This document shows positions 3,899 through 43,126 of a DNA stretch of 45,564 nt, one piece after another. The notes beneath the pieces are model-generated. The model had not been told where the DNA came from. It ran no database searches and saw only the letters and a list, made by a program, of their open reading frames with translations. Within the stretch, counting starts at the first letter, position 1. Each line of letters begins with the position of its first letter. The translations under genes were made by a program, and so were the position numbers. The DNA is from an uncultured Porphyromonadaceae bacterium (lineage in GTDB: Bacteria > Bacteroidota > Bacteroidia > Bacteroidales > Muribaculaceae): NCBI GenBank assembly GCA_947073495.1, contig CAMTMX010000014.1:1-45564 (forward strand), read 5' to 3'.

Positions 3899-4810
3899 AT
3901 GGAAGAAGAAATAAAAGATATACCCCAAACCCACAAGGCAGGGTTCGTAAACATTGTCGGAAATCCTAATGTCGGTAAGTCTACTCTCATGAACGACCTC
4001 GTGGGGGAACGCATTTCTATCATCACTTCGAAAGCTCAGACCACCCGACACCGTATTATGGGGATTGTCAACACCCCCGACTACCAGATCGTATATTCCG
4101 ACACCCCCGGTGTACTTAAGCCCAAATATAAACTTCAGGAATCTATGCTTGAATTTTCTGAAGGCGCATTGACAGATGCTGACATTCTCCTTTACGTCAC
4201 CGACGTGGTGGAAGATCCTGAAAAAAATAAGGATTATCTTGACCGTGTTGCAAAAGAGAATATCCCTGTTTTGTTGGTAGTCAACAAAATTGACCTTTTG
4301 AAAGGGGACGGCGACCTTGAGAAACTTGTTGAGGAATGGCACAAACGTCTCCCTAATGCCGAAATTTTCCCTACAAGCGCTAAAGAGCATTTCAATATTG
4401 AAAATCTCAAGAACCGGATTGTGGACCTCCTGCCTGTATCGCCTCCATTTTTCGGCAAAGATGCGCTCACAGACAAACCGGCACGTTTCTTCGTGACCGA
4501 GATAATTAGGGAAAAACTTCTTCTTAACTACGACAAGGAGATTCCCTACAGCACAGAAGTGCTCGTAGAGAAATTTGAAGAAAAAGAGAACGCCATACAT
4601 ATCATGTCGGTCATTTATGTGGAGCGAGATTCACAGAAAGGCATAATCATTGGCAAGGGAGGAGAAAAAATAAAGAAAGTCGGAATCGAGGCACGCCACG
4701 ATATCGAAAAATTTTTCGGCAAGAAAGTATTTCTTGAAATATTCGTGAAAGTGGAGAAAGACTGGCGCAATCGCGAGAGCAAACTCCGTGCTTTCGGTTA
4801 TATAGAATAA
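3899..4810 (+). CDS. era: GTPase Era
   Basis: Ribosome-assembly GTPase that binds the 3' end of 16S rRNA. The N-terminal G domain shows G1 GNPNVGKST (residues 21-29), G2 TTRHR, G3 DTPG, G4 NKID and the SAK motif. The C-terminal KH domain carries GIIIGKGGEKIKKVG. The frame opens at a GTG (3866), but the ATG at 3899 gives the normal length of 303 aa and starts just ahead of the G domain, so it is preferred. Its TAA is followed at once by a GAGTTGTGAG-type repeat and then by der, a second GTPase, 100 bases on. Confidence 0.95.
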   Translation: MEEEIKDIPQTHKAGFVNIVGNPNVGKSTLMNDLVGERISIITSKAQTTRHRIMGIVNTPDYQIVYSDTPGVLKPKYKLQESMLEFSEGALTDADILLYVTDVVEDPEKNKDYLDRVAKENIPVLLVVNKIDLLKGDGDLEKLVEEWHKRLPNAEIFPTSAKEHFNIENLKNRIVDLLPVSPPFFGKDALTDKPARFFVTEIIREKLLLNYDKEIPYSTEVLVEKFEEKENAIHIMSVIYVERDSQKGIIIGKGGEKIKKVGIEARHDIEKFFGKKVFLEIFVKVEKDWRNRESKLRAFGYIE

Positions 4811-4860
4811 TCAAATATTCAAGTTTCGAAGTTGTGAGTTGTGAGACCGTTGAGACTACC
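4808..4860 (+). repeat. GTTGTGAG-type intergenic repeat after era
   Basis: Starting at the era stop codon, the spacer contains the tandem GAAGTTGTGAGTTGTGAG (4829-4846). This is the same word as the long array at 43008-43090. It is part of a set of low-complexity elements at gene junctions in this window. Confidence 0.55.
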
Positions 4861-4910
4861 AACAACAAAAGACTTTTAATTCACCTTGCGAGACTTAAAT
4901 TAAATAACAG

Positions 4911-6227
4911 ATGAGCAGATTAGTAGCAATAGTAGGGCGGCCGAATGTGGGTAAATCAACCCTCTTCAACCGTTTGACGCAGACCCGCAGCGCAATTGTC
5001 GACGACACCGCGGGCACCACACGCGACCGGCAATATGGAATGGTCGACTGGTGTGGACAGGAATTTTCTATCGTCGACACCGGCGGTTGGGTGGTCAATT
5101 CTGAAGACATCTTCGAGGGAGAGATCAACAAACAGGTGCATATCGCTATTGAAGAGGCAGACGTGATCCTGTTTGTGGTGGATGCCTCTAACGGAGTCAC
5201 AGATCTCGACGATCAGGTGGCGGCTATTCTTCGCCGTTCAAAAAAACCTGTGATCCTCGTCGCCAATAAGGAAGACAAGGGCGACGCACGTTTCAATATC
5301 CCTGAATTTTATTCGTTCGGGTTGGGTGACCCGATTGAAGTGTCGTCGGCAAACGGAAGCGGCACCGGAGAACTCCTTGACAAGATAATAGAAGATATGC
5401 CGGAGCCGTCGGAAGACGACAAGCCCGAAGAAAATGTGGCTAAATTTGCCATCGTAGGACGTCCGAATGCCGGAAAATCTTCTCTTATCAATGCCTTTAT
5501 CGGTGAAGAGCGCCACATAGTGACCGATATAGCCGGCACCACCCGCGATTCTATCTATCACCGCTACAATAAATTCGGATTCGACTTCTATCTTGTTGAC
5601 ACCGCCGGAATCCGTAAGAAGCAGAAGGTGAACGAAGACATCGAATATTATAGCGTAATCCGGTCTATCCGTGCAATCGAGGCAAGCGATGTCTGCATCC
5701 TCATGATCGACGCCACCCGCGGCATCGAAGGTCAGGACGCAAGCATATTCGGACTTATCCAGCGTAATAAGAAAGGGCTTGTGGTATGCGTCAACAAGTG
5801 GGACCTCGTTGAAGACAAATCTATCACGGCTCAAAAGAATTTCGAGAATGCCATACGGCAGCGTTTCGCGCCATTCACTGATTTCCCGATTCTTTTCACC
5901 TCGGCAATCACAAAACAGAGAATTTATAAGGTGCTCGAGACTGCTATCGAGGTTTATAACAACCGGCGCCGACTTATCCCGACATCCCAACTCAACAGCT
6001 ATATGCTTGAGCAGATAGCTGTCACTCCGCCACCAAGCAACAAAGGCAAGTTTGTAAAAATCAAATATGTCACCATGCTTAAGGAGTCTGTGATACCCAC
6101 TTTTATATTTTTCTGCAATCTTCCGCAATGGGTTAAAGAACCTTACCGCCGCTTCCTTGAAAACAAGATACGCGAAAAATGGGATTTCCATGGAACCCCC
6201 ATCTCCATATTCATGCGCGATAAATAA
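4911..6227 (+). CDS. der: Ribosome-biogenesis GTPase Der (EngA)
   Basis: Double-GTPase protein of 438 aa needed for 50S subunit maturation. The first G domain has GRPNVGKST (residues 9-17), DTGG and NKED; the second has GRPNAGKSS (about 185), DTAGIRKK and NKWD. A KH-like C-terminal domain ends in [11 protein letters not shown], as in the family. ATG 4911 is the first in-frame start and gives the canonical [13 protein letters not shown]-terminus. A strong bidirectional terminator separates it from the convergent flippase gene. Confidence 0.97.
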
Positions 6228-6245
6228 TCTCCAAAATATTACAAC

Positions 6246-6305
6246 AATCAATAAAACAGCCATCCCTTATGCGATGAGGCATAAGGGATGGCTGTTTTAT
6301 TGATT
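6246..6305. terminator. 27-bp bidirectional terminator between der and the flippase gene
   Basis: Bases 6246-6272 and 6279-6305 are perfectly complementary over 27 bp with a six-base loop (GATGAG). The outer part is A/T-rich, so a T-run follows the GC core in both directions. It serves the convergent der (+) and flippase (-) transcripts. Confidence 0.92.
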
Positions 6306-6346
6306 ATCAAATATATGTATAATCTTTTACAATTCCCGTAAATTTC

Positions 6347-7864
6347 TTATCCTTTCAGACGACGCATCAATGGCGAAAGGAACGGAATCTCCTCAAAAAG
6401 CGCCACAACACCTACATAGACCATAAGCAAAGCAAAACGCGCCACGTATGTGATCCAAGTGGTGAAGAAGTTCTCCATCAGCATTCCCCCTACATACAGC
6501 ACACCTGCAAGCAGAAGATACATGAATATCCTTCCGGTCTGATAGGGGAGGGGATAATATTTCTTACCTGCAAAATAGCTCATCACCATCACTACAAAAT
6601 AGCTTATCAACGCCGCCCATGCCGAACCCATATATCCGTCGGGAATCCCTATCATTCGCACAAGCCATACATTAAGACCCAACATAAGCACAAAACATAT
6701 CAGAGAGAAATACATACCCCACTGCGTACGGTCGGTAAGCTTATACCATAACGAGAGATTGAAGAACACCCCGAAACATAACTCGGCAAGCATCATTATC
6801 GGCACCACCCTCAATCCGCTCCAATAGCCCGGAGAGATAAAATATTTTAGCACCGGAAGATAATACATCACCCCAAGGAATATAAGCAATCCGAAAATTA
6901 TAAAATATTTCATCGCATCGCAATAAGCCCGGCTTTTATCCTCCCCGGCTCCCCGAGCCTGTGAGAATATAAACGGCTCGTAGGCATATCTGAATGCCTG
7001 AGTAAACATCACCATGACAATGGCGATCTTCATGTTTGCCCCGTATATGCCCACCATGGAGCGTGCCGCCGTCTCGGCATCCGGAAAAAGGTAAGGTATT
7101 ATAAGCTGACCCATGTTCTGGCTGAGCATACCTGCCACCCCTAATATAAGGAGTGGCCAGCTGTATGAAAGCATCTTTTTGAACAGATCCCATAAAAATA
7201 CATATTTCCTGCCGAGCAGCTGCGGCATAAGGCAAAGCAACACAAGAAGCGTAGACAAGATGTTGGCTACAAAAATCCATCCTATGCCAAAAGCCTCACC
7301 TCCACAAGGTTGATAAAACCAACTTATGGCTCCCGGACAATGTTTCATTATTGCGGGACATCCCAAAAGGAAGAACATATTCAACCCTATGTTGAATGCC
7401 ACATTGAGTAGCTTTATGCCCGCGAAACGCCATGCCTTGTTCTTATATCTGAGATACGCGAACGGGATGTTGGAAAATGCATCGATAGCAACCGTCACAC
7501 CCATGATCCACACATAGAGGGAATGGTGTGGCAATGTCAATGCGGCCGAAACAGGCTGCAGAAACAAAGACAATAGCAATATGAACAATAATGAAGTGAA
7601 TCCCACTGAAATAAGGGAAGTGGTGTAGACAGACTCCGGATCCTTTTCCTTGTTGGCAAAACGGAAGAATCCTGTCTCCATACCGTAATTGAGGATCACC
7701 AAAGCAACCGCGGTCGCTCCATAAAGATATGTGACAACCCCATATTCCTGCGATGGGAAAAGATAAACATAAAGAGGCACAAGACACCAGTTGAGAAATC
7801 TGCCCACAATGCTGCTCAGCCCATAGACAGCCGTGTCTTTCGCCAGAGATTTTATTCCTGCCAT
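6347..7864 (-). CDS. Polysaccharide flippase (Wzx/MATE-like, oligosaccharide export family)
   Basis: Integral inner-membrane protein of 505 aa with about 12-14 hydrophobic segments, typical of the polysaccharide biosynthesis/Wzx family. It is predicted to flip lipid-linked oligosaccharides or a related precursor for surface glycan or envelope assembly. The N-terminus KSLAKDTAVYGLSSIVGRFL and the early motif QEYGVVTYLYG are characteristic. The frame is open 31 codons further upstream, but that part overlaps ruvB; ATG 7862-7864, seven bases after the ruvB stop, is the likely start. It is probably cotranscribed with ruvB. No glycosyltransferase cluster is adjacent, so the substrate cannot be guessed. 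Confidence 0.85.
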   Translation of the reverse strand: MAGIKSLAKDTAVYGLSSIVGRFLNWCLVPLYVYLFPSQEYGVVTYLYGATAVALVILNYGMETGFFRFANKEKDPESVYTTSLISVGFTSLLFILLLSLFLQPVSAALTLPHHSLYVWIMGVTVAIDAFSNIPFAYLRYKNKAWRFAGIKLLNVAFNIGLNMFFLLGCPAIMKHCPGAISWFYQPCGGEAFGIGWIFVANILSTLLVLLCLMPQLLGRKYVFLWDLFKKMLSYSWPLLILGVAGMLSQNMGQLIIPYLFPDAETAARSMVGIYGANMKIAIVMVMFTQAFRYAYEPFIFSQARGAGEDKSRAYCDAMKYFIIFGLLIFLGVMYYLPVLKYFISPGYWSGLRVVPIMMLAELCFGVFFNLSLWYKLTDRTQWGMYFSLICFVLMLGLNVWLVRMIGIPDGYMGSAWAALISYFVVMVMSYFAGKKYYPLPYQTGRIFMYLLLAGVLYVGGMLMENFFTTWITYVARFALLMVYVGVVALFEEIPFLSPLMRRLKG

Positions 7865-7871
7865 ATTATTT

Positions 7872-8906
7872 TCAATCCTCTTCAAACAGACTGCCCGGAG
7901 CACTGATACGCCGGCGTCCAAGATGTGTATACGCAAGATCCGTGGCTTCTCTTCCACGGGGTGTACGTTTAAGAAAACCTTCTTTTATGAGAAATGGTTC
8001 GTAGACCTCTTCAAGTGTGCCCGGATCTTCTCCCAATGCAGTGGCTATGGTCGATAATCCTACAGGCCCCCCCTTGAATTTATCAATAATAGTGAGCAGA
8101 ATACGATTATCTATCTCATCGAGACCATAGCGGTCTATATTCAATGCCTCAAGTGCATGCCGGGCTATGTCGATGTCAATAAAGCCGTTACCTTTCACCA
8201 TTGCAAAATCTCTCACACGCCTCAGAAGGGCGTTGGCGATACGCGGGGTGCCACGGCTTCTGAGCGCTATCTCCATTGCCGCCTCATCTGCTATACCCAC
8301 GCGCAGCAATCCTGCAGACCTGCGCACAATACCCTTCAATATTGAATGGTCGTAATATTCAAGATGGCAGTTTATTCCAAATCTTGCACGGAGGGGCGAT
8401 GTGAGCAAGCCGCTTCTTGTGGTGGCCCCTATTAGAGTGAACGGAGATATCGTGAGCTGCACGCTCTTGGCTCCGGGACCCTTGTCAAGAAGAATATCGA
8501 TACGGTAATCTTCCATCGCGGAATAGAGATATTCTTCCACAATGGGATGAAGACGATGAATCTCGTCTATAAAAAGCACATCGTTCTCCTCCAGACTCAT
8601 GAGGATACCGGCAAGATCTCCCGGTTTGTCGAGCACCGGTCCTGAAGTCACTTTAAACCCTACGCCAAGTTCATTGGCTATAATATTCGAAAGGGTGGTC
8701 TTTCCGAGTCCCGGAGGACCATGAAGCAAAGTATGGTCAAGCGACTCACCACGAAGGCGTGCCGCCTTCACGAAGACCCGGAGATTATCTATAATTTTAT
8801 CCTGCCCGCTGAAGTCGTCAAACGCCAACGGACGAAGAGCCTTCTCCACATCTTTTTCAGAGTCGCGCACCTGCCTCTCCCTGATGTCAAAATCTTCTTC
8901 TTCCAT
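7872..8906 (-). CDS. ruvB: Holliday junction branch-migration ATPase RuvB
   Basis: Hexameric AAA+ motor that drives branch migration with RuvA in homologous recombination. The 344-aa protein shows Walker A GPPGLGKT (63-70), Walker B DEIHR, sensor 1 GATTRSG, the arginine-finger region LRARFG, and the winged-helix C-terminus ([14 protein letters not shown]). ruvA and ruvC are not in the window. The flippase gene starts seven bases downstream. Confidence 0.97.
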
Positions 8907-8959
8907 GATGCAAATTTACATAAAAAATCCATATTTATCATGCATCCCTATTATATAGA

Positions 8960-9000
8960 AATGTCTGCCGTTCCATCTTTTTAATGAAACGGCAGACATT
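8960..9000. terminator. Hairpin between the His-rich protein gene and ruvB
   Basis: AATGTCTGCCGTT (8960-8972) pairs perfectly with AACGGCAGACATT (8988-9000). The flanks are A/T-rich but lack a clean T-run, so termination of the upstream gene (9057-9668, -) is likely rather than certain. Confidence 0.6.
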
Positions 9001-9018
9001 CCTTACACAAAATTCCTT

Positions 9019-9059
9019 AAATTAAACCCTAAACCATAAACTCTAAACCATACCCCCTA
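9019..9059 (-). repeat. TTTAGGG-type repeat at a stop codon
   Basis: Read on the - strand, the TAG stop at 9059-9057 runs directly into GGGGTATGGTTTAGAG and then TTTATGGTTTAGGGTTTAA. The same word follows the nadA stop (15684) and occurs reversed at 14238-14259. Confidence 0.55.
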
Positions 9060-9668
9060 CAAATTTATATTCAGTTGAATCGGTGGGATAAGTGTCCAGG
9101 GCGAAAGGGGCTGCCAGTTGACAGTTATCAGGCTACGGTCTCCATACCTGTCTGCGTATGGATATAAATACTGTGTATAATACCTGTTGCCCCGACGATA
9201 TTTCACAATATATGTGTCATAATCAATCTGCCATACAGCTACATCACGACATCCTCTTGTGGCATATCTCACCATGTGGCTAAGACGAGGAGGAGGAGGA
9301 GGGGGAGCCGGGGCATAATGGTGTGGACGTGGGTGCGGATGATGATGATGGACATGAGCCGGTGCGTGACGTCTCACACCATGTCCCGGAGCAGGCATCG
9401 AATGCCCTTTGCCTGGACGGAAATCATTATGTTGTTTTCCGTGACGATAATCTTTTCCCCTTTTTTCATTGTCTTTTTTGCCGTGGCGATTATTGCTTCC
9501 TCTATTGTGGCTCTTTCCTTTTTCGCGGTTTTCATTTCTCCCTCCGCGACGGTTATCGCGTTGCTCCTTCCGATCTCTGCCATGGTCTCCATGATTGTCG
9601 GCAAAGGTTTCCACACTGCCTATCATAAGAAACAGGGAGAGAAACATACAGGTTATTATCTTCTTCAT
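9057..9668 (-). CDS. Exported His/Pro/Arg-rich protein of unknown function
   Basis: I do not recognise a family for this 203-aa protein. It has an N-terminal signal peptide (cleavage likely after about residue 23, SVETFA-DN). Then comes a highly charged, low-complexity segment of about 85 residues rich in Arg, Lys, Asn, Gly and His, and a histidine cluster (HVHHHHPHPRPHH) followed by a proline run (APAPPPPPPRL). A compact C-terminal part of about 70 residues is rich in Tyr (AVWQIDYDTYIVKYRRGNRYY). The histidine cluster could bind metal ions; that is inference. Several overlapping frames on the + strand are shadows of this compositionally odd gene. It stands alone between ruvB and the sirtuin gene. 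Confidence 0.7.
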   Translation of the reverse strand: MKKIITCMFLSLFLMIGSVETFADNHGDHGRDRKEQRDNRRGGRNENREKGKSHNRGSNNRHGKKDNEKRGKDYRHGKQHNDFRPGKGHSMPAPGHGVRRHAPAHVHHHHPHPRPHHYAPAPPPPPPRLSHMVRYATRGCRDVAVWQIDYDTYIVKYRRGNRYYTQYLYPYADRYGDRSLITVNWQPLSPWTLIPPIQLNINL

Positions 9669-10887: not shown

Positions 10888-10952
10888 TGAAATCTAACTC
10901 AAGAAAAGTATCATTGCGATAACTTTTCCATAATTATTAACCGAAAACAGAC

Positions 10953-11180
10953 ATGGCAAAAGTTAAAGGCGCAATCACTGTCAACGTAGAACGCTGCAAA
11001 GGTTGCAATCTGTGTGTGGCTGCGTGTCCCACCGATACGCTTTCCTTACAGCCCAACGAAGTAAACGACCGTGGATACCATTACGCTTTTATGGCTAATC
11101 CCGACAACTGCACCGGGTGCTGTTCTTGTGCGTGGGTATGTCCTGACGCATGCATAGAAGTGTATAGAGTAAAAGTGTAG
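10953..11180 (+). CDS. korD: 2-oxoacid:ferredoxin oxidoreductase, delta (ferredoxin-like) subunit
   Basis: A 75-aa protein with two [4Fe-4S] motifs: CKGCNLCVAACP (about 15-26) and CTGCCSCAWVCP (about 52-63). It passes electrons between the catalytic alpha/beta subunits and external ferredoxin. First gene of a D-A-B-C operon. Its TAG stop runs straight into a CAATTAG repeat, and 148 bases separate it from the alpha gene, an unusually wide gap inside such an operon. The vorD or korD name depends on the true substrate, which sequence alone does not settle. Confidence 0.9.
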   Translation: MAKVKGAITVNVERCKGCNLCVAACPTDTLSLQPNEVNDRGYHYAFMANPDNCTGCCSCAWVCPDACIEVYRVKV

Positions 11181-11212
11181 ACAATTAGCAATTAGCAATT
11201 GGTGATTGGAGA
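11178..11212 (+). repeat. CAATTAG repeat after korD
   Basis: The korD stop TAG leads directly into ACAATTAGCAATTAGCAATT and GGTGATTGG. Related AATTA words occur at 15709-15742, 15848-15884 and 18058-18080. Confidence 0.6.
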
Positions 11213-14732: not shown

Positions 14733-15686
14733 ATGAACGCAACTCCCAACGCATCTTCCGCTGACAATATCAGAGAGGAGATCGCACGCCTTAAAAAAGA
14801 GAAAAACGCTCTTATCATGGCACACTATTATCAGCGCGACGAAATTCAGGAGATTGCCGATTTCATAGGTGATTCCCTTGCTTTGGCTCAACAGGCTGCC
14901 AAGACCGACGCGGATATGATTGTGATGTGTGGGGTGAATTTCATGGGTGAGACCGCCAAAATCTTATGTCCCGACAAGATTGTTCTCATTCCCGACACAG
15001 CCGCCGGATGTTCGCTTGCCGACAGCTGCGATCCTGTGGAATTTGAAAAATTCGTAAAGGAGCACCCTGACCACACTGTGATAAGCTACGTTAATACTTC
15101 TGCAGCAGTCAAGGCGCATACAGATATAGTTGTCACCTCCGGAAATGCCCGCAAGATAGTGGAGCAGCTTCCGGAAGATGAAAAGATCATATTCGGTCCT
15201 GACCATAATTTGGGTGAATATATAAATAGTGTGACGGGGCGCAACATGCTTCTGTGGAACGGGGCATGCCATGTCCACGACCGTTTCTCCCTCGAAAAGA
15301 TTGCAGAGATGAAGAGGCGACATCCTTTGGCAAAGGTGCTCGTACATCCGGAATGTCGCCGTCCCTTACAAATGATAGCCGATAAGGTGGGCTCGACAGC
15401 TGCCCTCCTTGATTTTGCTACTAAAGACGATGCTCCCGAATATATAGTGGTCACGGAAAGCGGCATTCTCTTTGAGATGCGCAACAAATGTCCGGAAAAG
15501 ACATTCCTTGCTGCACCTGCCGAAGATGCGGAGTGCCAGTGCAACGAATGCGATTTCATGAAGCTCAACACCCTAAAAAAGGTGTATGAGGCATTGCGCG
15601 ACGGCAAGCCCGAAGTGAATGTGGATCCGGAGATAGCAGAAAAGGCGCTTCGTCCCATCAAGCGTATGCTCGAGATGTCTAAATAG
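14733..15686 (+). CDS. nadA: Quinolinate synthase A
   Basis: [4Fe-4S] enzyme that condenses iminoaspartate with dihydroxyacetone phosphate to quinolinate in de novo NAD synthesis. The 317-aa protein has the N-terminal MAHYYQRDEIQ motif and the three cluster-cysteine regions: MCGVNFMGE, WNGACHVHDRF and CQCNECDFMKL. No nadB or nadC is adjacent, although these are often clustered with nadA in Bacteroidales. ATG 14733 follows a very A/T-rich leader. The TAG stop leads directly into TTTAGGGTTTAGGG repeats. Confidence 0.95.
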   Translation: MNATPNASSADNIREEIARLKKEKNALIMAHYYQRDEIQEIADFIGDSLALAQQAAKTDADMIVMCGVNFMGETAKILCPDKIVLIPDTAAGCSLADSCDPVEFEKFVKEHPDHTVISYVNTSAAVKAHTDIVVTSGNARKIVEQLPEDEKIIFGPDHNLGEYINSVTGRNMLLWNGACHVHDRFSLEKIAEMKRRHPLAKVLVHPECRRPLQMIADKVGSTAALLDFATKDDAPEYIVVTESGILFEMRNKCPEKTFLAAPAEDAECQCNECDFMKLNTLKKVYEALRDGKPEVNVDPEIAEKALRPIKRMLEMSK

Positions 15687-15742
15687 TTTAGGGTTTAGGG
15701 CTTTTTTCAATTATCAATTAGTAATTATCAATTAGTAATGGA
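15684..15742 (+). repeat. TTTAGGG and AATTAGTAATTATC repeats after nadA
   Basis: The nadA stop TAG is followed by TTTAGGGTTTAGGGCTTTTT, then by ATTATCAATTAGTAATTATC and another ATTAG copy up to 15738. Two repeat types are therefore joined directly. Confidence 0.6.
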
Positions 15743-15847: not shown

Positions 15848-15884
15848 TAAATTACTAATTACTAATTATTAATTGCTAATTGTA
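15848..15884 (+). repeat. AATTACTAATTACTAATT repeat before the trmH-like gene
   Basis: Tandem ATTACTAATTACTAATTATT followed by AATTGCTAATTG. It is roughly the inverse of the repeat at 15709-15738, so the two flank about 105 bases as imperfect inverted repeats. It ends three bases before the TTG start at 15887. Confidence 0.6.
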
Positions 15885-16429: not shown

Positions 16430-17404
16430 CTATTTGTAAATTAGTAGAGAGAGGACTTCCACAAGCCTTCTCCCTCCTATATAAGAGGCTACTATCCCTA
16501 TCTTGTTTTTTAACCTTACAGAGGGGTTGCGCAAAGATTCTCCGCGCAACTCCTTTATTTTATTCCAGCATCTGTAGGCTATTTCATTTGCTTTGCCGGC
16601 ATCTCCTTCAATATACTTTCTATTTGCGGCAATAAGTCCGAGCATGTTGAAATTGGCGCTAAGCTGGCGTGAACGTGCCGCCTTTAATAATTCTGGACAT
16701 TCAGCGGATACGTAGTCCGTGAGCCTTTTTGTCACCTCTAAAACGTCAGCCCTGTTCAATGAGAAGGTGTGGATATAGCTTTCCTTATGTTGCCTGTAAT
16801 AGTAGAGTGGTGTTTCAAGAATTACAACTCTATTTGCTTTTAAAAATAATGATGAGATTATATCAAGGTCTTCATAACCGGTGCCTGCACGGAAACGCAC
16901 TCCTTTCCATATATTGGAAGAGTAGAGTTTCCCACATGCAGAATTGTCAATATTTTTCTGATAAAGTATATTTTCGAGAGCTTCAATAGAAGAAAGTGTA
17001 TAATTACTAAGAGAAGAGGCTACACATTTATCCGAAGGTCTTTTAGAATCTTTAAAGTGTTTTAAGGGGGCGGAGACTATATCACATTCTTTTGAAAAAA
17101 GTAATAAGGTCTCTATAGCTCTGGAAGGAAGAAGGTCGTCTGCATCTAAAAAAAATATAAAATCGCCGGCGGCATTGTCCAGACCTAAATTTCTGGCACA
17201 TGAAAGACCTCCATTACTTATATGATATACTTTAATTCTTGAATCTTTGGCACATGCTTCATCACATATATTCCCGGAGGAATCGGTTGACCCGTCATCC
17301 ACAAGTATCAGCTCCCAGTCGGTATAAGTCTGGGAAAGCACGCTGTCTATCGTTTGTGAAAGATATTTTTCAGCGTTATAGACCGGAATGATGACAGAAA
17401 CCAT
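16430..17404 (-). CDS. Family 2 glycosyltransferase
   Basis: GT-A fold inverting glycosyltransferase of 324 aa. N-terminal MVSVIIPVYNAEKYL, the nucleotide-binding VDDGSTDSSG, and the DxD-type FFLDADDLL motif (about residues 89-97) mark the GT2 domain. The C-terminal third is not recognisable. It probably adds a sugar to a surface polysaccharide or lipid carrier; donor and acceptor are unknown. It lies downstream of frr on the same strand, separated by 79 bases that hold a copy of the 35-nt repeat and a GGGGTTATAA inverted repeat. Confidence 0.88.
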   Translation of the reverse strand: MVSVIIPVYNAEKYLSQTIDSVLSQTYTDWELILVDDGSTDSSGNICDEACAKDSRIKVYHISNGGLSCARNLGLDNAAGDFIFFLDADDLLPSRAIETLLLFSKECDIVSAPLKHFKDSKRPSDKCVASSLSNYTLSSIEALENILYQKNIDNSACGKLYSSNIWKGVRFRAGTGYEDLDIISSLFLKANRVVILETPLYYYRQHKESYIHTFSLNRADVLEVTKRLTDYVSAECPELLKAARSRQLSANFNMLGLIAANRKYIEGDAGKANEIAYRCWNKIKELRGESLRNPSVRLKNKIGIVASYIGGRRLVEVLSLLIYK

Positions 17405-17418
17405 AGTATTTTATAAAA

Positions 17419-17454
17419 GGGGTTATAAAGTCAGTATATTAACCTTATAACCCC
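17419..17454. repeat. GGGGTTATAA inverted repeat
   Basis: GGGGTTATAA (17419-17428) and TTATAACCCC (17445-17454) are perfect inverted repeats directly next to copy 2 of the 35-nt element. A comparable longer inverted repeat flanks copy 3 at 21774-21835. Confidence 0.55.
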
Positions 17455-17486
17455 ATAACCCTCAACTTTCGAAGAAAGTTGAATTA
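17455..17486 (-). repeat. Copy 2 of the 35-nt hairpin repeat, starting at the frr stop codon
   Basis: On the - strand it begins with the frr stop TAA (17486-17484) and continues TTCAACTTTCTTCGAAAGTTGA. It forms an 8-bp hairpin (17463-17470 with 17474-17481). It is slightly shorter than copies 1 and 3. Confidence 0.7.
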
Positions 17487-18041: not shown

Positions 18042-18057
18042 AATATTATAGTATTAA

Positions 18058-18080
18058 ATTATAATTCCAATTATCAATTA
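18058..18080 (-). repeat. AATTGATAATTGG repeat at the pyrH stop codon
   Basis: On the - strand the pyrH stop TAA leads into TTGATAATTGGAATTATAA. The same AATTA vocabulary occurs after korD and nadA. It fills much of the pyrH-frr spacer. Confidence 0.5.
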
Positions 18081-21773: not shown

Positions 21774-21835
21774 TGAAGGTTAGCGAGTTAAGTGGTTAAT
21801 GTTATCCTTTTGACCACCTAACCTCATAACCTTCA
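21774..21835. repeat. Long imperfect inverted repeat upstream of the peptidase gene
   Basis: TGAAGGTTA (21774-21782) pairs with TAACCTTCA (21827-21835), and GTTAAGTGGT pairs with ACCACCTAAC inside. It overlaps the start of copy 3 of the 35-nt repeat and would form a large stem in the cyclophilin-peptidase spacer. Confidence 0.6.
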
Positions 21836-21860
21836 ACCTTCGCAAGCGAAAGTTGAATTA
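21826..21860 (-). repeat. Copy 3 of the 35-nt hairpin repeat, starting at the cyclophilin stop codon
   Basis: On the - strand it begins with TAA, the stop of the cyclophilin gene (21860-21858), then TTCAACTTTCGCTTGCGAAG and GTTGAAGGTTAT. It forms a stem of about 10-11 bp and is the best-preserved copy. Confidence 0.7.
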
Positions 21861-36778: not shown

Positions 36779-38206
36779 TTAGAGAACAATTGTGTTAAAT
36801 GACAGCGGTTGGAATTCAATAGCTATCTGTTTGTCTCCTATCTTGATGGTTTTTTGCGATAATTTTTCGTCAGGGTTATAGACAATAATTACATATCTGC
36901 CGTCAGGGTTTTTGAATGCTATTATATTCTCATCCGAACCCTTCGAAGAAAGTAGATGCGCTCCAGATTGTATATAATGACTAAAATGTTTCAATAGATA
37001 ATATTCATTGGTATATTTATAATTGAGAGTCACCGGATCTACGGTTACGAGAGAGTTTTGTGTCCATCCCCATCTGCTCATGCCTCCTTGTTCAAGAGAT
37101 ATGTTCCAATAGTTATACACATTTACACCGTTTTCCATAAAATATTTCATGAGATGCCAGGAATATACACATCCTTCCCAGTCATTCAGCCCGTCACCAC
37201 ATTCTTGTTCAGTCTGGATTATTTTAATTTCAGGATATTTTTTATGCACTTTCGGTAGAGCATATTTCCCTGCCCATTGAAACCCTATTCCATTTATATA
37301 TTTTTTACAATCAGGATCGTTCAATACTGTATCCACCATTGCTTCGTCAGGACGTTCCATGGTGCCGAACATCACGTCGACACCAATCTTGTTCATGGCT
37401 GGGGCAAGATACTTGCCTACGAATTCCGCAAGAGTGGAAGATTTCCATGTGCAACTCGGAAATGGTTGGCATGAGTTAAATTCGTTTTGGGGCATAACCA
37501 TAAAAATGTTAATCCCATTATCCCTATACGACTCTATAAATTTTGTGAAGTATAATGCATAAGCTTTATAATATTTTTCTTCCGGAATAAACATATTGAC
37601 TCCCTCTTTTCTGACTTGCTCGGGTTTAATGCCGTTTTCTCCTACAGAGTTGAAGAATGAGGTGTCAAGGGATTGACACGCGTAGTGTCGATTTTCCTTC
37701 ATCCATATAGGGGGACTCCAGGGAGACGCCCATATTTTAAGGTCTGGATTATATTCAAGCGCGTTTTTTATGAATGGAATAAGTGTCTCCTGATCATTTT
37801 CAATACTGAAACTTGCCATCTCAAAATCTCCTTCTGTTTCATCGTATGAATACCAATCTCTTGAGAAATCATTTGCCCCAATAGGCATCCGGCATATTGT
37901 CAGGTTGGCTCCTTCTCCTGGTTTGAATAATTCTTTCATTATGCTTTGTCTTGATGAATCAGCAAGCAAACTTAATGATGTCCATCCAAGTTCGTTAAAG
38001 CATGCGCCAAAACCATCAATAGTCTGTAATGGTTTCTTTGTGTCTATAATATAGTCAGGGATTGTTCCCGATACTTCCTTTATAGCTTCAGTATTTTGAG
38101 TCTGCCAAGGATTTGTTTCCATGGTAGACACCCATTCTGTCTTTGTCGTTGTGCTGCAGGCTGTAATCAAACCTATCAGGCATAAATGCATCGGGAATAG
38201 TTTCAT
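36779..38206 (-). CDS. GH30 glycoside hydrolase lipoprotein
   Basis: A 475-aa retaining beta-glycosidase anchored by a lipobox (ITAC, Cys17), so probably on the outer membrane or cell surface. GH30 motifs: QTIDGFGACFNELGW (61-75), ASPWSPPIWMK, acid/base Glu242 in MPQNEFNSC and nucleophile Glu333 in QTEQECG. The C-terminal beta-sandwich ends with FNTIVL. Related enzymes are glucosylceramidases, beta-glucosidases and endo-beta-1,6-glucanases; which of these applies is not clear. It is the first gene of the GH30-GH65 unit and is divergent from the GH13 gene. Confidence 0.9.
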   Translation of the reverse strand: MKLFPMHLCLIGLITACSTTTKTEWVSTMETNPWQTQNTEAIKEVSGTIPDYIIDTKKPLQTIDGFGACFNELGWTSLSLLADSSRQSIMKELFKPGEGANLTICRMPIGANDFSRDWYSYDETEGDFEMASFSIENDQETLIPFIKNALEYNPDLKIWASPWSPPIWMKENRHYACQSLDTSFFNSVGENGIKPEQVRKEGVNMFIPEEKYYKAYALYFTKFIESYRDNGINIFMVMPQNEFNSCQPFPSCTWKSSTLAEFVGKYLAPAMNKIGVDVMFGTMERPDEAMVDTVLNDPDCKKYINGIGFQWAGKYALPKVHKKYPEIKIIQTEQECGDGLNDWEGCVYSWHLMKYFMENGVNVYNYWNISLEQGGMSRWGWTQNSLVTVDPVTLNYKYTNEYYLLKHFSHYIQSGAHLLSSKGSDENIIAFKNPDGRYVIIVYNPDEKLSQKTIKIGDKQIAIEFQPLSFNTIVL

Positions 38207-38347
38207 GGTTATGTCGGTTTATAATTTGAATATGCGGATAAACATATTTTATATTTAAGAGAGAGCAAACATTAATAATGCCTAAAATTAGTCAATTTAA
38301 TTAACAATTTTTAACTATATGAGGTTTATCTTTTTTCGTATAAGTTG

Positions 38348-38361
38348 GGGATAATTATCCC
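38348..38361. promoter_or_regulatory. 14-bp palindrome upstream of GH13
   Basis: GGGATAATTATCCC is a perfect palindrome 40 bases upstream of the GH13 -7 box. That position fits an activator or repressor dimer. Confidence 0.5.
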
Positions 38362-38401
38362 TATTTGAAAGGGAGAATTCGGGTAGTGTTGGAATTTTTA
38401 T

Positions 38402-38409
38402 TAACTTTG
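38402..38409 (+). promoter_or_regulatory. -7 element of the GH13 gene
   Basis: TAACTTTG fits TAnnTTTG, 48 bases before the ATG at 38457. No -33 box at the normal spacing, which suggests dependence on an activator. Confidence 0.5.
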
Positions 38410-38456
38410 CGATTAAGTTGTTACAACTTATAAATTTTAAATTTTGCTTAACTATC

Positions 38457-40358
38457 ATGAAAAATTTTTTTCTTACAGCATGCCTGGCGGTTGGTGTTGT
38501 CTCCGGTAATTCCGCGACTAAATCTCCGCAAGTGGATCATGTGGAACCACCTTATTGGTGGACCGGAATGGCTAACGATACCGTGCAACTTATGGTGTAT
38601 GGAGCCGGTATAAAAGATGCCCGATTGAATCTTGATTACCCGGGTGTGAAAGTAGTGGAGATCGCTGATCTTGATGGTTCTCCCGATTACTTGGTGGCTT
38701 ATCTTTCAATCGATGACAGTGCAAAACCGGGAACTGTCAATCTCATGTTTGAAAACAAAAAGGGTAAGAAACAGTCCGTACCGTTCGAGCTTAAATCCCG
38801 TACATGGCAACCTGCCGATGCAAAAGGGTTTGATGCATCCGACGTGTTGTATCTGATAATGCCCGACCGTTTTGCCGACGGTGATCCATCAAACAATGAC
38901 CTGCCGGAAAAAATGAAAGCAGGTCTGAATGCTACAGGTGCCGACAGATCCAAACCTAACGCCCGTCACGGAGGCGACATAAAAGGGATGAGTGACAACC
39001 TTGATTATATTGAAGACCTCGGCGTCACTGCTATATGGGTGAATCCGGTGCTCACCAACAACCAACCGGGAGGATCCTATCACGGATACGCCACCACAGA
39101 TTATTACAATATCGATCCGAGATTCGGGACAAATGATGAATGGCGCGAATTTGTGGATAAAGCCCATGGGAAAGGGATGAAGGTCGTAATGGACATGATT
39201 TTCAATCATTGCGGCAGCGAACATCTGTGGCTGAAGAATCCTCCTGCATCCGACTGGTTTAACCATCAGAAAGAGTTCGAAGAAAAAGGGGAATATGTGA
39301 TCACAACCCATAAGAAAAATTCTCTTTTCGATCCATACGCAAGCGATATTGATAAGGACCTTGCTGTAAACGGATGGTTCGTACCGAGTATGCCTGATCT
39401 CAATCAACTTAACCCTCATGTGATGAATTATCTTATCCAGAACTCGATTTTCTGGATTGAAGATTCTCATATAGATGGTATACGCATGGACACTTACCCA
39501 TACGCCGACAAAAATCAGATGGCTCGTTGGATTGATGCTGTCGAGAAGGAATATCCGAATTTCAACATAGTCGGGGAATGCTGGTATGACGGGGAGGCTC
39601 CAAATGCCTACTGGCAACGTGCCACCAAATTGAACGACACGGACCCTCGTCTTAAGACCGTGATGGATTTCCTATATGCAAACGGTGGCAAGCGTTATTT
39701 CTATGAAGATTCGAAAGGTAACGAAGGACTTAACCGGATCTATGAACATCTCTCAATGGATTTCCTTTATCCTGATCCACAGAAAATCCTGACATTCCTT
39801 GACAATCATGATACCGACCGCTTCCTCTCGGAAGATCCTTCCGATCTTAAAAACTGGAAACAGGCAATGGCTCTATTGCTTACGTCAAGAGGTATTCCCC
39901 AGCTTTACTATGGATCTGAAGTTTTGATGTCGGGCACACGTGCAGAAGGTGGCGACGCAAATGTGCGTCGTGATATGTCGGGCGGCTTTCCGGGTGACTC
40001 GATTTCCGTTTTCACACGCGAAGGTCGCGATGAGTTGCAGAATGAGGCATACGATTACTTGTCGAAACTGCTTAACTGGAGAAAGAGCAATCCTGCCAAC
40101 GATGTGATTGCATCAGGTAAAATGACTCATTTCGCACCATATAACGGTATTTATGTCTATTCCCGCAGACTCGGAGATAAATCTGTGATAGTTATCCTTA
40201 ACGGCACGGATGAAGACGCATTGTTTGATGCAAGCCGCTATACCCAGGTGCTCGACGGCAATACCGGTTATACAGATGCAATAACCGGAGATAAGATCCA
40301 ACCCGACAACCTCAAGACACTCCCACCACGCGCATCCCTTATCCTCACAAATTTCTAA
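38457..40358 (+). CDS. GH13 alpha-amylase/neopullulanase (SusA-like)
   Basis: Exported alpha-glucan hydrolase of 633 aa. Signal peptide 1-19; an N-terminal cyclomaltodextrinase-type domain (VEPPYWWTGM at 29-38) resembling Bacteroides SusA; then the GH13 barrel with nucleophile Asp345 (GIRMDTYPYA), acid/base Glu374 (VGECWYDG) and transition-state Asp452 (LDNHDTDRF); and a C-terminal cyclomaltodextrinase-C-like beta domain. It is predicted to cut pullulan or maltooligosaccharides in the periplasm. The frame starts at TTG 38418, but ATG 38457 gives the signal peptide. No susB, susC or susD of a starch system adjoins it. It ends at a bidirectional terminator. Confidence 0.93.
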   Translation: MKNFFLTACLAVGVVSGNSATKSPQVDHVEPPYWWTGMANDTVQLMVYGAGIKDARLNLDYPGVKVVEIADLDGSPDYLVAYLSIDDSAKPGTVNLMFENKKGKKQSVPFELKSRTWQPADAKGFDASDVLYLIMPDRFADGDPSNNDLPEKMKAGLNATGADRSKPNARHGGDIKGMSDNLDYIEDLGVTAIWVNPVLTNNQPGGSYHGYATTDYYNIDPRFGTNDEWREFVDKAHGKGMKVVMDMIFNHCGSEHLWLKNPPASDWFNHQKEFEEKGEYVITTHKKNSLFDPYASDIDKDLAVNGWFVPSMPDLNQLNPHVMNYLIQNSIFWIEDSHIDGIRMDTYPYADKNQMARWIDAVEKEYPNFNIVGECWYDGEAPNAYWQRATKLNDTDPRLKTVMDFLYANGGKRYFYEDSKGNEGLNRIYEHLSMDFLYPDPQKILTFLDNHDTDRFLSEDPSDLKNWKQAMALLLTSRGIPQLYYGSEVLMSGTRAEGGDANVRRDMSGGFPGDSISVFTREGRDELQNEAYDYLSKLLNWRKSNPANDVIASGKMTHFAPYNGIYVYSRRLGDKSVIVILNGTDEDALFDASRYTQVLDGNTGYTDAITGDKIQPDNLKTLPPRASLILTNF

Positions 40359-40385
40359 TTTTAGATATTGACAATAATCAATAAT

Positions 40386-40430
40386 AAAGAATGGCGGCAG
40401 GAAATGAATTCTTGCTGCCATTCTTTTAAC
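40386..40430. terminator. Bidirectional terminator between GH13 and the propeller lipoprotein
   Basis: AAAGAATGGCGGCA (40386-40399) pairs with TGCTGCCATTCTTT (40413-40426) over 14 bp with one G-U pair. T-runs result in both directions. Confidence 0.88.
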
Positions 40431-40531
40431 AAAATATCAGGTTTTATTCTTACCTTTGTATCCAGTATCAAACTCTTAGATTAGTGCATTTTATGTAATT
40501 GATTACATAATTATATAGTGCCGTAAAACTA

Positions 40532-41692
40532 TTAATCGACTTTAAATTTGTAGATACGGAACGCGATGGTGTTCTCATCTATTTCTATCGGCAGGAAACG
40601 GCATCCGACAAACTCGCCATTGCTATATCCAAGCAATTTAAAGTATGGAGGCATTTCTGTTTCCAATATCATGTTGCCGTCGCGATAACCCTGAAGCGCA
40701 ACCCGACCGGATGCAAAATCCAATAACGTAGTCCGAAGCACAAGATCCTTATCCGCCACATACATCACCCCGGTATTGCAACCGATCTGTCCGTCCTGAA
40801 TATCTTTCCCAAATGTTTCAGAGGGATCGTTATATCCTATAGTATATGTCCGTTTTACACCCGGTGCGTCTTCTCCAAAACTATATTCTATTTCTCCCGA
40901 ATCGTTTACGCAATATAGATTTGGATCGGTAGCGAATGAAACAAAATATTTCCTATTTGTTGCGTCGTATGCATAATCAAAGAACTCAAAACCAGGGGTA
41001 GGATTTGCAAGCATGAAAGGAGGAAACTGACCGAAAACATTGTCTACCTTCATGTTTTTCACCGCAAGATTTCCGAAAATATGTCCCTTCTTGTAACGAT
41101 CTTCATCAACTTTATCGCCGACAAGCCTCTTAATGATGGATACAGGGAACACAATATCCCCATTTCCTTTTTTCAAGAATGTTATACCGAAATCGGTCAT
41201 CTCCATTATGTTATAAGCACCGGGAGAATCATAGCCCTGTTCTTCTTCACTCCATCCAAAATCCACATTCCCAAGATTCATAAGGGAATCTTTTGAAGTG
41301 TCATAAATATACATCTTTACGGACCTGTCGATCAAGACAATGCTATCTTTGCTATTTGAAAGACCGGATGCATAGAGCAGGTTGGAAAGTTCGTTAGGTC
41401 CTTGTCCCTCCCTAAGTTTCTTGCCTAAATATTCACCATTCAGGTTATAGAGATGCAATCCATAGTTTCTGGCATCGGCGAAATATAATGTGTCGCCACA
41501 CATCACAAAGTTTCCTTGAGTGCTGGTGTCGATAGCGTCTATATTTATGGAATCGATTTGGGAGATATTGGAAGTCAATAGCTTGTTGCCTTTATGTGGG
41601 ATTCCCTCCTTGTCGGAAGTGGCACATGAAGACAGCATGCATAAAGATGTCATCATAACAGTACTGAAAACTACATTTAAAATCTTTTTCAT
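40532..41692 (-). CDS. BF3164-type six-bladed beta-propeller lipoprotein
   Basis: A 386-aa lipoprotein (lipobox LSSC, Cys23) of the 6-bladed propeller / BF3164 family common in Bacteroidales. The family has no established function. Features seen are repeated beta-strand patterns with DTLYFADARNYGLHLYNLNGEYLGK and the family-typical GQGPNEL motif. It has its own strong promoter and is convergent with GH13. Nothing in the neighbourhood links it firmly to glycan use. Confidence 0.82.
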   Translation of the reverse strand: MKKILNVVFSTVMMTSLCMLSSCATSDKEGIPHKGNKLLTSNISQIDSINIDAIDTSTQGNFVMCGDTLYFADARNYGLHLYNLNGEYLGKKLREGQGPNELSNLLYASGLSNSKDSIVLIDRSVKMYIYDTSKDSLMNLGNVDFGWSEEEQGYDSPGAYNIMEMTDFGITFLKKGNGDIVFPVSIIKRLVGDKVDEDRYKKGHIFGNLAVKNMKVDNVFGQFPPFMLANPTPGFEFFDYAYDATNRKYFVSFATDPNLYCVNDSGEIEYSFGEDAPGVKRTYTIGYNDPSETFGKDIQDGQIGCNTGVMYVADKDLVLRTTLLDFASGRVALQGYRDGNMILETEMPPYFKLLGYSNGEFVGCRFLPIEIDENTIAFRIYKFKVD

Positions 41693-42053
41693 GATTCAAA
41701 AAATTAAGTCAGATTTAGCATGCCCATTACTTATTCTATTAAGTGGTAAAATGGCAATGGATTTACAAAATTACATTTTTGTCTCATATCTACAAAGTTA
41801 TTTGAATATTTAGAGCGCGCTCTTAATTAAAAAGGTAGTGCAAGTCAAGATGATTCAGGTTGGAAAACTCCCACGTAGAACCGTTCAAGATATGCTCAAT
41901 GAACTTTGAAATAATCCCTACCCTTATACAGATATGGTAAAAGAAATTATACTTAGAGAAAGTTTAAACGCCCCGGATTAGGATGTCCTTAAGATAGGGA
42001 ATCATAACCGGGACGCAAATAATTATATCGCTTGTTGATATAAATTCTATCTT
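41693..42053. other. Intergenic region upstream of the propeller gene
   Basis: It holds the propeller promoter (41766-41796, -). The remainder, 41800-42053, contains no credible gene. A short frame at 41850-41909 (MIQVGKLPRRTVQDMLNEL) followed in frame, after TGA, by NNPYPYTDMV looks protein-like and may be a decayed coding remnant; the evidence is slight. Confidence 0.45.
41766..41796 (-). promoter_or_regulatory. Promoter of the propeller lipoprotein gene
   Basis: On the - strand TTTG (41796-41793), a 19-base spacer and TAATTTTG (41773-41766). Start near 41759, leader about 67 bases. Confidence 0.75.
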
Positions 42054-43007
42054 TTACGAGACTACGTTGCGGGGAGTGCCTGATACGAATGCAGCCAGAT
42101 TTCCTTCGCATATTTCCATCAGACGTTGGCGTGCTTCCACAGTAGCCCAGGCTATGTGAGGAGTGATAAAGGTATTGGGAGCCGACAACAACGGATTATC
42201 GGCTGCCGGAGGTTCGGAAGACAATACATCTGCCCCGAATGCACCAAGTTTCCCGGCTTTCAAAGCATTTGCAACCGCCTGTTCATCAATCAACGGTCCA
42301 CGCCCGGTATTGATCAGAATCGCTGTAGGTTTCATCAGTTTCAATCTTTCGACGTTAACTAAGTTGTTTGTTTCCGGAGTAAGCGGGCAATGGAGACTCA
42401 ATACGTCACTTTCAGAAAACAGTTGATCAAGAGTAACCTTTTGAATACCTGCCGGAAGTTCTTCCTGTTTCTTGGAAGTGAAGGCAACGACTTTCATTCC
42501 GAATGCATTGGCGATACGTGCCACTGCGTTGCCGATATTCCCGAGTCCGACAATACCGAAAGTCTTTCCGGCAAGTTCCATAAGCGGAGAGTCCCAATAA
42601 CAGAAATCCGGATTATTGCTCCAGCGTCCTTTATGGTTTTCAACAGCATAATGCTCCACACGATTTGTAATTGCGAGGAGAAGAGCGAAGACCATCTGTG
42701 CCACGGAATCAGTGCTGTATGCAGGAATGTTGGTAACAACAACGCCTAATTGATGTGCTGTTTTCACATCAACGATATTATAGCCGGTAGCAAGGACGCC
42801 GATGTATTTAAGATTGGGCAGGGAGCTGAGTGTTTCAGCATTTATCACGACTTTATTGGTGAAGATCACATCTGCATCGGCAGCTCTCTCCATAAGTTCG
42901 GAAGGGGAGGTGCGGTCGTAGATTTTAACTTCTCCATATCTATTAAGCCAATCCCAGCTCAGGTCGCCGGGATTCAAGCCATATCCGTCAAGTACTGTTA
43001 TTTTCAT
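42054..43007 (-). CDS. D-2-hydroxyacid dehydrogenase (glycerate dehydrogenase-like)
   Basis: NAD(P)-dependent oxidoreductase of 317 aa interconverting a D-2-hydroxyacid and a 2-oxoacid. It has the nucleotide-binding GIVGLGNIGNAVARIA motif (about 147-162) and the catalytic Arg in NTGRGPLID, Glu in LSSEPPAAD and His in PHIAW. It resembles hydroxypyruvate/glycerate dehydrogenases, but the exact substrate is open. The frame extends 31 codons upstream into a repeat array (peptide PQLKTQNSQLKTHNSQL), which is plainly not protein; ATG 43005-43007 is the true start. It is downstream of rsmA. Confidence 0.9.
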   Translation of the reverse strand: MKITVLDGYGLNPGDLSWDWLNRYGEVKIYDRTSPSELMERAADADVIFTNKVVINAETLSSLPNLKYIGVLATGYNIVDVKTAHQLGVVVTNIPAYSTDSVAQMVFALLLAITNRVEHYAVENHKGRWSNNPDFCYWDSPLMELAGKTFGIVGLGNIGNAVARIANAFGMKVVAFTSKKQEELPAGIQKVTLDQLFSESDVLSLHCPLTPETNNLVNVERLKLMKPTAILINTGRGPLIDEQAVANALKAGKLGAFGADVLSSEPPAADNPLLSAPNTFITPHIAWATVEARQRLMEICEGNLAAFVSGTPRNVVS

Positions 43008-43126
43008 ATTTAGTTTTGAGTTTTGAGTTGGGGTTGTGAGTTGTGAGTTGTGAGTTTTGAGTTGTGAGTTTTGAGTTTTGAGTTGGGGTGAATCATTCAA
43101 AATTCAACATTCAAAATTCAAAATTA
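43008..43126 (-). repeat. Low-complexity repeat array between rsmA and the dehydrogenase gene
   Basis: On the - strand it begins at the rsmA stop TAA (43126-43124) with TTTTGAATTTTGAATGTTGA. It changes near 43085 to CAACTCAAAACTCAAAACTC-type tandem units of 8-9 bases (about ten units), ending just before the dehydrogenase ATG. It fills the whole spacer. Confidence 0.8.

Follow-up and report, generated by a model that had tools for sequence, protein, structure and literature searches.

Short tandem-repeat arrays at stop codons in a Muribaculaceae-like bacterium and their association with S23p cassettes

Arrays of short tandem words are found at the stop codons of genes in contig CAMTMX010000014.1 of an uncultured Porphyromonadaceae bacterium. 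The whole stretch of 45,564 nucleotides (the window) was analysed together with other parts of its genome and with related genomes. The array units are 7, 8 or sometimes 9 nucleotides long, and in some gaps the arrays bracket a gene of the S23p family. Such cassettes have a common layout: the stop codon of a neighbouring gene, a G/T-rich array, the S23p gene (four-helix-bundle, PF05635), an inverted A/C-rich array, and then the next gene. We observe anchoring at stop codons, species-specific words, turnover of words at the same gene end, and inverted bracketing of S23p genes at junctions that measure at most 30 nt in some relatives. The explanation we favour, with a probability of roughly 0.5, is that the arrays, together with a dispersed hairpin, originate at native stop codons or next to them and pass from one junction to another, and that they are arms, mostly solo ones, of S23p cassettes resembling the intervening sequences (IVSs) of 23S rRNA.

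The draft genome to which the window belongs, as contig C14, comprises 3.53 Mb (3,525,131 bases) in 183 contigs. The host of the window is classified by sequence as a Muribaculaceae-like member of the Bacteroidales, because its PyrH is closest, among named relatives, to those of metagenome-assembled genomes that bear the labels Porphyromonadaceae (93% identity) and Muribaculaceae (88% identity); the habitat is probably the gut. Our sample of this genome comprises the window and 60 further stretches (61 pieces, 1,235,208 bases, 35% of the genome). The sample and some stretches from relatives (G110 included) were partly picked around word matches, which biases array densities upward; the anchoring test is little affected by this choice, because it compares positions inside the same gaps. 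The relatives compared are different species of the genus, and 91 genus genomes were used for counts of words and hairpins. Genes were called with our own codon-score script, whose starts are approximate and which misses some genes, including real ones in the window.

Arrays with periods of 7, 8, 14, 16, 21, 24 or 28 are concentrated between genes: Tandem Repeats Finder reports 177 in intergenic and 21 in coding sequence of the sample, 15% of whose bases are intergenic. The intergenic pieces of the first 844 kb yield 187 rows of these periods, versus 1, 1 and 3 in three dinucleotide shuffles. The window itself holds 18 perfect period-7 runs in 45.6 kb, compared with three at period 14 and zero at each of periods 8-13 and 15, a comparison in which the length threshold for a perfect run rises with the period and thereby disadvantages longer periods somewhat.

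Anchoring was scored as an array block lying no more than 5 nt from a gene end, gap by gap, against uniform placement within that gap. Among stop-side ends in the host genome, 37 of 120 are anchored where 14.1 are expected, versus 9 of 110 start-side ends (12.8 expected). The corresponding counts are 52 of 106 (19.6 expected) and 13 of 108 (12.5 expected) in the genus mates, and 21 of 70 (8.4 expected) and 5 of 60 (6.4 expected) in 80 named Bacteroidales contigs. In the host genome the terminal codon is covered by an array at 22 of 672 stops versus 3 of 703 starts; the relatives give 40 of 562 versus 8 of 590. An array or hairpin begins within 12 nt of the stop at 66 of the 864 stops in the host sample. 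An earlier note, made from the letters of this DNA alone, had proposed a genome-wide process that places repeated sequence directly at stop codons, often inside operons, and that differs from ordinary terminators; it had named a lack of genome-wide enrichment as the result that would undo the idea. The enrichment is present (37 against 14.1 expected), the process extends through the genus and into operon interiors, and its products mostly look unlike ordinary terminators. The arrays also have a strand bias, being G/T-rich in 28 of 48 stop-proximal and 2 of 25 start-proximal cases in the host genome; the bias is weaker in relatives (32 of 56 versus 12 of 33).

The S23p cassettes were recognized in a gap of locus L012 (15290-15830), where a small open reading frame (ORF) lies between inverted AATTAGT arrays; S23p genes at L254-L257 likewise stand between inverted short-tandem arrays. 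Its product, the one protein tested, matches PF05635, the 23S rRNA-intervening sequence protein family, with 95.7 bits, and also TIGR02436; solved structures exist for S23p relatives (2rld, 2gsc). The host genome has four TIGR02436 matches, all on contigs other than the window, and all four lie between arrays. They carry four different words (GAGTTGT/GAGATTT; GGTCTTT; AATTAGT; and GGGTTATA with the hairpin), and these words also fill gaps that have no S23p gene. The accessory protein Avd of diversity-generating retroelements, whose partners are a reverse transcriptase and a template/variable repeat, is a relative of S23p.

Across the genus, 24 of 70 S23p matches above 80 bits were examined (the four host loci and 20 from genus mates), and 23 were usable after L273, whose contig ends 32 nt past the gene, was left out. 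Arrays flank the S23p gene on both sides in 22 of the 23, the exception being L269, versus 44 of 396 control genes of 90 to 200 amino acids; the control genes are bounded by gene calls and the S23p genes mostly by profile match, and at least one S23p gene (L012) is among the controls, which reduces the contrast. The flanks are G/T-rich on the left and A/C-rich on the right in 19 loci and the opposite in none; the controls give 12 versus 13. Exact inverted 10-mers occur at 17 of 24 S23p loci and 72 of 396 controls, and since such matches miss diverged arms, array presence and G/T composition were scored instead. An array edge falls between -12 and +7 nt of the neighbour's stop codon on 17 of 45 cassette sides, as a raw count without a null expectation. 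Typical IVSs lie inside an rRNA gene and are cut out of the RNA by RNase III. The S23p loci that we read adjoin protein-coding frames and, judged by these neighbours, do not lie inside an rRNA gene. Genomes with a strong S23p match are richer in arrays than those without (349 in 2355 kb versus 14 in 251 kb; Mann-Whitney p 0.03, 15 versus 8 genomes). Some S23p matches contain internal stop codons, as expected of decaying selfish genes (L255 at G000:C118:4108-4431, G074:C47:23276-23587, and G013:C8:56953-57204).

Eight of the 24 S23p loci have both flanks matched together, without the cassette, in another of the genomes compared. The shortest distance between the two flanking protein alignments is 11 nt for L254 (in G025), -7 for L255 (G012), -1 for L270 (G110; also 8 nt in G016) and 29 nt for L272 (G000), while L263, L264 and L267 give 98 to 101 nt (all in L066) and L261 gives 190 nt (G110). 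L263, L264 and L267 belong to one junction between convergent genes, which has an S23p gene in G114, G112 and G077 and none in L066. The same gene end there has four different beginnings across L263, L264, L267 and L066: TAA followed by CGTTTTACG, TGA by CGTTAGACG, TAA by GCGTGACGCG, with array-like last codons, and TGA by GTCTTAAGTCTTAAG.

The words vary by junction yet recur in the genome, in agreement with what the earlier note reported: three units of AATTAGY have 80 overlapping exact matches and two units of TTTAGGG have 6, and the hairpin has 50. The lexicon of the host sample comprises 65 words, and AATTACT occupies 23 gaps where the simulated maximum is 7. Words differ among species. 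Three units of TTAAGRG, the word of a G110 cassette (L276), have 28 to 181 overlapping matches in G005, G110, G012, G112, G077 and G078, 1 to 7 matches in three further genomes and none in the other 82 of the 91, in a survey whose reversed-pattern control matched other arrays in at least 12 genomes and so gives no clean zero. The strict word GGACGTTKK is present in 5 of the 91 genomes, with 9 matches in G112 (cassette L264) and none in G114, whose cassette L263 bears it in a shorter form, ACGTTKK. By coordinate, GGACGTTKK flanks an S23p match on both sides in G080 and on one side in G102.

Orthologous junctions illustrate this turnover. Between rsmA and hprA, the host has 116 nt of 7-mers and a sister species (G063) has 114 nt of ACTAGACN 8-mers, whereas the distances in six other relatives are -4, -4, 1, 2, 3 and 36 nt; this rests on our own reading of 30 loci, in 8 of which the pair is adjacent. 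In G028, a TAGCTAARA 9-mer begins at the rsmA TAG. A direct duplication of about 60 nt (ACATGCGCTATTTGCCTATGCGCG..) follows the rsmA stop in L162 (G017), so that repeats of longer units occur there too. The pyrH-frr distance is 36 nt in the host and 132 nt in L072, where a 9-mer array starts from the stop; both ends were found in 20 further relatives, whose distances range from 11 to 107 nt. The nadA junction spans 308 nt in the host, by our own gene calls, versus 18 nt in G029 and -1 in G036. Among 102 orthologous adjacent pairs, arrays are present in both species in 2, in the host only in 6 (3 junctions), in the relative only in 20 and in neither in 74. Arrays are thus rarely common to orthologous junctions, which speaks against a conserved regulatory role.

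Growth at the stop codon has left most proteins little changed. A relative was available for 27 array-crossing genes, but two of these pairs were self-matches and were set aside. In 19 of the remaining 25 the unaligned C-terminal tails of gene and relative differ by no more than 4 residues, and in 8 of those 19 there is no difference. Truncation of C termini by invading arrays was therefore rejected for most genes. Some tails are altered, since differences of at least 5 residues are seen in 6 of the 27 versus 15% of 82 controls, and G025 has several array-coded protein tails.

The dispersed hairpin has the consensus TTCAACTTTCGCNNGCGAAAGTTGA, often with GGGTTAta 8-mers behind it, and about 50 copies in the host genome. 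Paired changes are seen in its stem, for example CAGCTTTC..GAAAGCTG. In its strict form it has 36 copies in the host, 38 in G110, 1 to 5 in eight other genomes and none in 81 of the 91. It is also associated with stop codons: 11 of 25 stop-side ends lie within 12 nt in the host sample (1.9 expected) versus 0 of 21 start-side ends, and the counts in G110 are 4 of 16 (1.2 expected) and 0 of 16. Hairpin copies lie no further than about 300 bases from contig starts in G000 (C3, C42, C63, C115, C120) and G110 (C3, C5, C40, C41), and the attached 8-mer arrays therefore probably break assemblies.

Another dispersed element of the host genome behaves differently. This imperfect palindrome of 165 bp resembles a miniature inverted-repeat transposable element (MITE) and has 13 copies of at least 100 nt in the sample, 84 to 100% identical (L011:12223-12388, L021:4777-4942, L211:9665-9830 and 10 more); no match was found in the stretches from relatives. 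It lacks stop anchoring, with 1 of 12 stop-side ends anchored where 1.0 is expected. Relaxed constraint past stop codons alone therefore does not place every insertion there, although 12 ends are few. Long conserved repeats were also considered as the source of the arrays and were rejected: comparing the intergenic sequences with one another brought out a single large family, and this unanchored palindrome makes up its best pairs.

Within the window, the earlier note listed eight genes whose stop codons open an array or hairpin. Its gene names hold: Era, NadA, Frr, PyrH, cyclophilin and RsmA by profile search and translation, and a 4Fe-4S ferredoxin-like ORF at 10941-11180 fits korD as judged by eye on its translation; the His-rich protein gene is at 9057-9668. 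The element begins within 4 nt of the stop at six of the eight (nadA, korD, the His-rich protein gene, rsmA, frr and the cyclophilin gene) and does not do so at era and pyrH. Nor is a single class of element supported for these junctions, because the window mixes at least two, namely 7/8-mer arrays and the dispersed hairpin with its 8-mers. An Rfam search of the window returned two tRNAs only.

The array block at 43008-43126 (minus strand) includes the rsmA stop (43124-43126) and fills the whole rsmA-hprA junction, first with TTTTGAA-type units and from there to the hprA ATG with AACTCAA-type units. The rsmA TAA opens the TTTTGAA units, and the arrays run from 43125 to 43012, abutting the next ATG. 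The longest hprA ORF (42054-43100) begins within this array and its family match starts at residue 31, so automatic annotation could prepend about 30 array-coded residues. At nadA (15684-15739, plus strand), the stop at 15684-15686 is a TAG that opens two GTTTAGG units, followed by CAATTAT, CAATTAG and TAATTAT (CAATTAK-type) units; an inverted arm of AATTACT units occupies the far side of the junction (15850-15881, plus strand). The korD-like stop TAG (11178-11180) has a CAATTAG array from 1 nt past it (11178-11200, plus strand), and the TAG of the His-rich protein gene (9057-9059) has a degenerate GGTTTAG/AGTTTAT array 4 nt past it (9023-9059, minus strand).

The frr junction (17404-17486, minus strand; stop 17484-17486) reads CAACTTTCTTCGAAAGTTG, with the dispersed hairpin (17463-17481) 2 nt past the TAA and inverted GGTTATAA/TTATAACC 8-mers that pair as a second hairpin. 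A slightly altered copy of the frr-type hairpin, TTCAACTTTCGCTTGCGAAGGTTGA, follows the cyclophilin-gene stop at 21858-21860 (21833-21860, minus strand), again 2 nt past the TAA (CAACTTTCGCTTGCGAAGGTTG). The era stop (4808-4810) is near an AGTTGTG array (4830-4845), which starts 19 nt downstream and so is not at the stop (4808-4845, plus strand). At the pyrH-frr junction, TTGATAATTGG is found past the TAA and no array is reported (18042-18080, minus strand).

Several observations count against our preferred explanation. G110 has an array excess on both sides (stop side 14 of 56 versus 6.5 expected, start side 12 of 62 versus 6.6), and arrays of other periods in the host genome are modestly enriched at stop and start sides alike (6 versus 2.2 and 6 versus 1.9). 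Arrays also occur in genomes that lack a strong S23p match, G032 having nearly the density of G000, and solo arrays far exceed the four S23p matches of the whole host genome. Some cassette-free relatives keep 81 to 367 nt between the flanks (L254, 367 nt in G014; L255, 81 nt in G014; L272, 205 nt in G110). In G114, the ACGTTKK word of cassette L263 is not strictly matched anywhere else, so cassette words are not all dispersed. Copying between loci is weakly indicated by one common string of 60 nt, where 20 shuffles reached at most 55; the count of pairs that share strings (5) does not exceed that in shuffles. Neither a target-site duplication nor a cut site was seen, although no search aimed at them was made, and no movement of an element was observed.

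The arrays might instead be ordinary heptameric simple sequence repeats, which we regard as quite possible but not probable. Slippage would make the arrays, selection would purge them from genes, promoters and initiation regions, the stretch after a stop codon would be the safest, and S23p genes would be passengers that recombination between arrays had inserted. The intergenic bias (177 versus 21 arrays, with 15% of bases intergenic) and the lack of conservation at orthologous junctions (2 of 102 pairs have them in both species) fit this possibility, slippage has already been proposed for heptamers (PMC4679880, PMC4692102), and a similar heptamer geometry in Xanthomonas and Nostoc (PMC4692102) also weighs against the cassette explanation. 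However, independent slippage should yield unrelated words, yet AATTACT is shared by 23 gaps; the MITE-like palindrome in the same genome is not anchored at stops, as far as 12 stop-side ends can tell; and an inverted bracketing of S23p genes of 19 to 0 is not required of passengers. Selective tolerance at gene ends accounts for part of the anchoring, but not for the inverted bracketing or the common lexicons.

Functional elements at 3' ends, acting as backup stops in all frames or in control of ribosomes or mRNA ends, are improbable. Sense stops do number 11.2 per 100 nt in stop-proximal arrays versus 5.9 in array-free sequence, partly by construction, in that arrays crossing a stop repeat it. 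The stop triplet, however, matches the unit consensus at 0.894 versus 0.870 for the other four positions (Wilcoxon p 0.15, 48 seven-mer arrays crossing a stop); since the triplet shows no higher conservation than these positions, backup stops are unlikely, and we rejected fail-safe stop codons on this position test. Ho and Hurst (PMC6764699) likewise report no compelling evidence that selection favours additional stop codons in eubacteria. Hairpins do lie 2 to 7 nt past many stops, and among the six window junctions folded, frr (z -6.9), the cyclophilin gene (z -4.1) and rsmA (z -3.6) are more stable than shuffles, whereas nadA, the His-rich protein gene and korD fold no better than shuffles; the presence of arrays is also not conserved between species. 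The arrays look tolerated rather than useful. We would be equally surprised if a Y1 transposase of the type associated with repetitive extragenic palindromes (REP-associated tyrosine transposase, RAYT) spread the hairpin and its 8-mers to gene ends. The roughly 50 hairpin copies, their patchy distribution in the genus and three Y1_Tnp genes in the genome (L061, L062 and L063, with open frames of 331 to 355 amino acids, either RAYT-like or domesticated) are in keeping with such transposition, but no hairpin copy lies within 1.5 kb of any of the three genes, the hairpin consensus carries no GTAG or CGTC tag as judged by eye, and the 7-mer arrays are not such palindromes. The RAYT link was dropped because the Y1_Tnp genes have no flanking hairpins.

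If the arrays are indeed mostly solo arms of S23p cassettes, the cassettes would enter at gene ends and leave solo arms behind, and the arrays would lengthen by replication slippage. S23p or another partner may help a word to reach new gene ends; the mobilizing role of S23p is a suggestion from these associations. Gene ends might be targeted because the stop codon matches the stop-containing unit of the array itself, or through the way in which the element enters. A bolder and rather doubtful proposal is that S23p, possibly with a host enzyme, is the working protein of a minimal mobile element, of a class not yet described, that builds repeat arms, enters at stops, leaves solo arrays and has one word per cassette. 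Such an element, if real, would unify the stop anchoring, the species lexicons, the inverted pairs, the heptamers next to S23p in one rRNA IVS and perhaps the unexplained heptamers of other phyla. If the link to S23p holds, the family gains a role, growth of operon junctions by at least 100 nt at a stop codon with little protein change is explained, and comparing the cassette word with the genome lexicon provides a clean comparative test. Annotators and assemblers should also be aware that the arrays probably break contigs and can mimic N-terminal extensions, as at hprA.

The earlier note knew of no named element that fits, but heptameric intergenic repeats (PMC4692102, PMC4679880) and S23p IVSs with inverted repeats (PMC4990558) are in print. 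Xanthomonas and Nostoc have heptameric G-rich repeats (GGGAATC or GGGGA(C/T)T) in intergenic regions between aligned ORFs, with inverted pairs; on the sense strand they lie no more than 50 bp from the stop, overlap included, and on the antisense strand just before starts, and their role at gene ends is still unresolved (PMC4692102). The arrays described here resemble them in their 7-nt tandem units, intergenic location, proximity to stops and inverted pairs, with the G-rich strand in sense orientation past stops and antisense before starts. However, the published repeats comprise one G-rich word type per genome, at mostly the same genes in two related Xanthomonas, whereas here many AT-rich words and periods are found, few junctions are common, anchoring at stops is tight without an excess at starts, and there is a link to S23p. 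No single dominant word recurs at the same junctions in related species (65 words; both species in 2 of 102 pairs). The TAACTGA heptamers of Beggiatoaceae, Cyanobacteria and five Bacteroidetes are likewise intergenic and include a stop codon within the unit, and close relatives have shorter regions with no evident repeats; some Bacteroidetes intergenic regions hold heptamers other than TAACTGA (PMC4679880). That family consists of one word located mostly just upstream of starts in the giant bacteria (Beggiatoaceae), unlike the many words found here mostly at stops (PMC4679880).

The hairpin resembles REP/RAYT systems in being a dispersed extragenic palindrome, but it differs from them in having no GTAG/CGTC tag, no hairpin-flanked transposase among those found, and attached 8-mer arrays (PMC3733652). 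S23p itself is described as a hypothetical-protein family without known function (PMC4990558). In Flavobacterium columnare, a four-helix-bundle gene occupies a short gap; it lies about 35 nt past guanylate kinase, and a nicotinate-nucleotide adenylyltransferase gene comes after it (PMC5524665). The titles and abstract openings of open-licence literature revealed no link between S23p and intergenic arrays. The Coxiella IVS, which has been called selfish, carries tandem heptamers immediately upstream of its S23p ORF, in numbers that vary by strain, and transposition has been put forward as the origin of the inverted repeats of IVSs (PMC4990558); the Coxiella heptamers support the association of S23p with arrays from outside the genus. 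Like the 23S rRNA IVSs (PMC4990558), the cassettes are small and combine an S23p four-helix-bundle ORF with inverted repeats and tandem heptamers beside the ORF. Unlike those IVSs, they occupy junctions of protein genes, their array arms have differing words, and many arms are solo. Because they share the S23p gene and inverted repeats and not the rRNA location, we classify them as IVS-like rather than as IVSs. S23p genes and gene-end heptamers, each known separately, meet in this genome.

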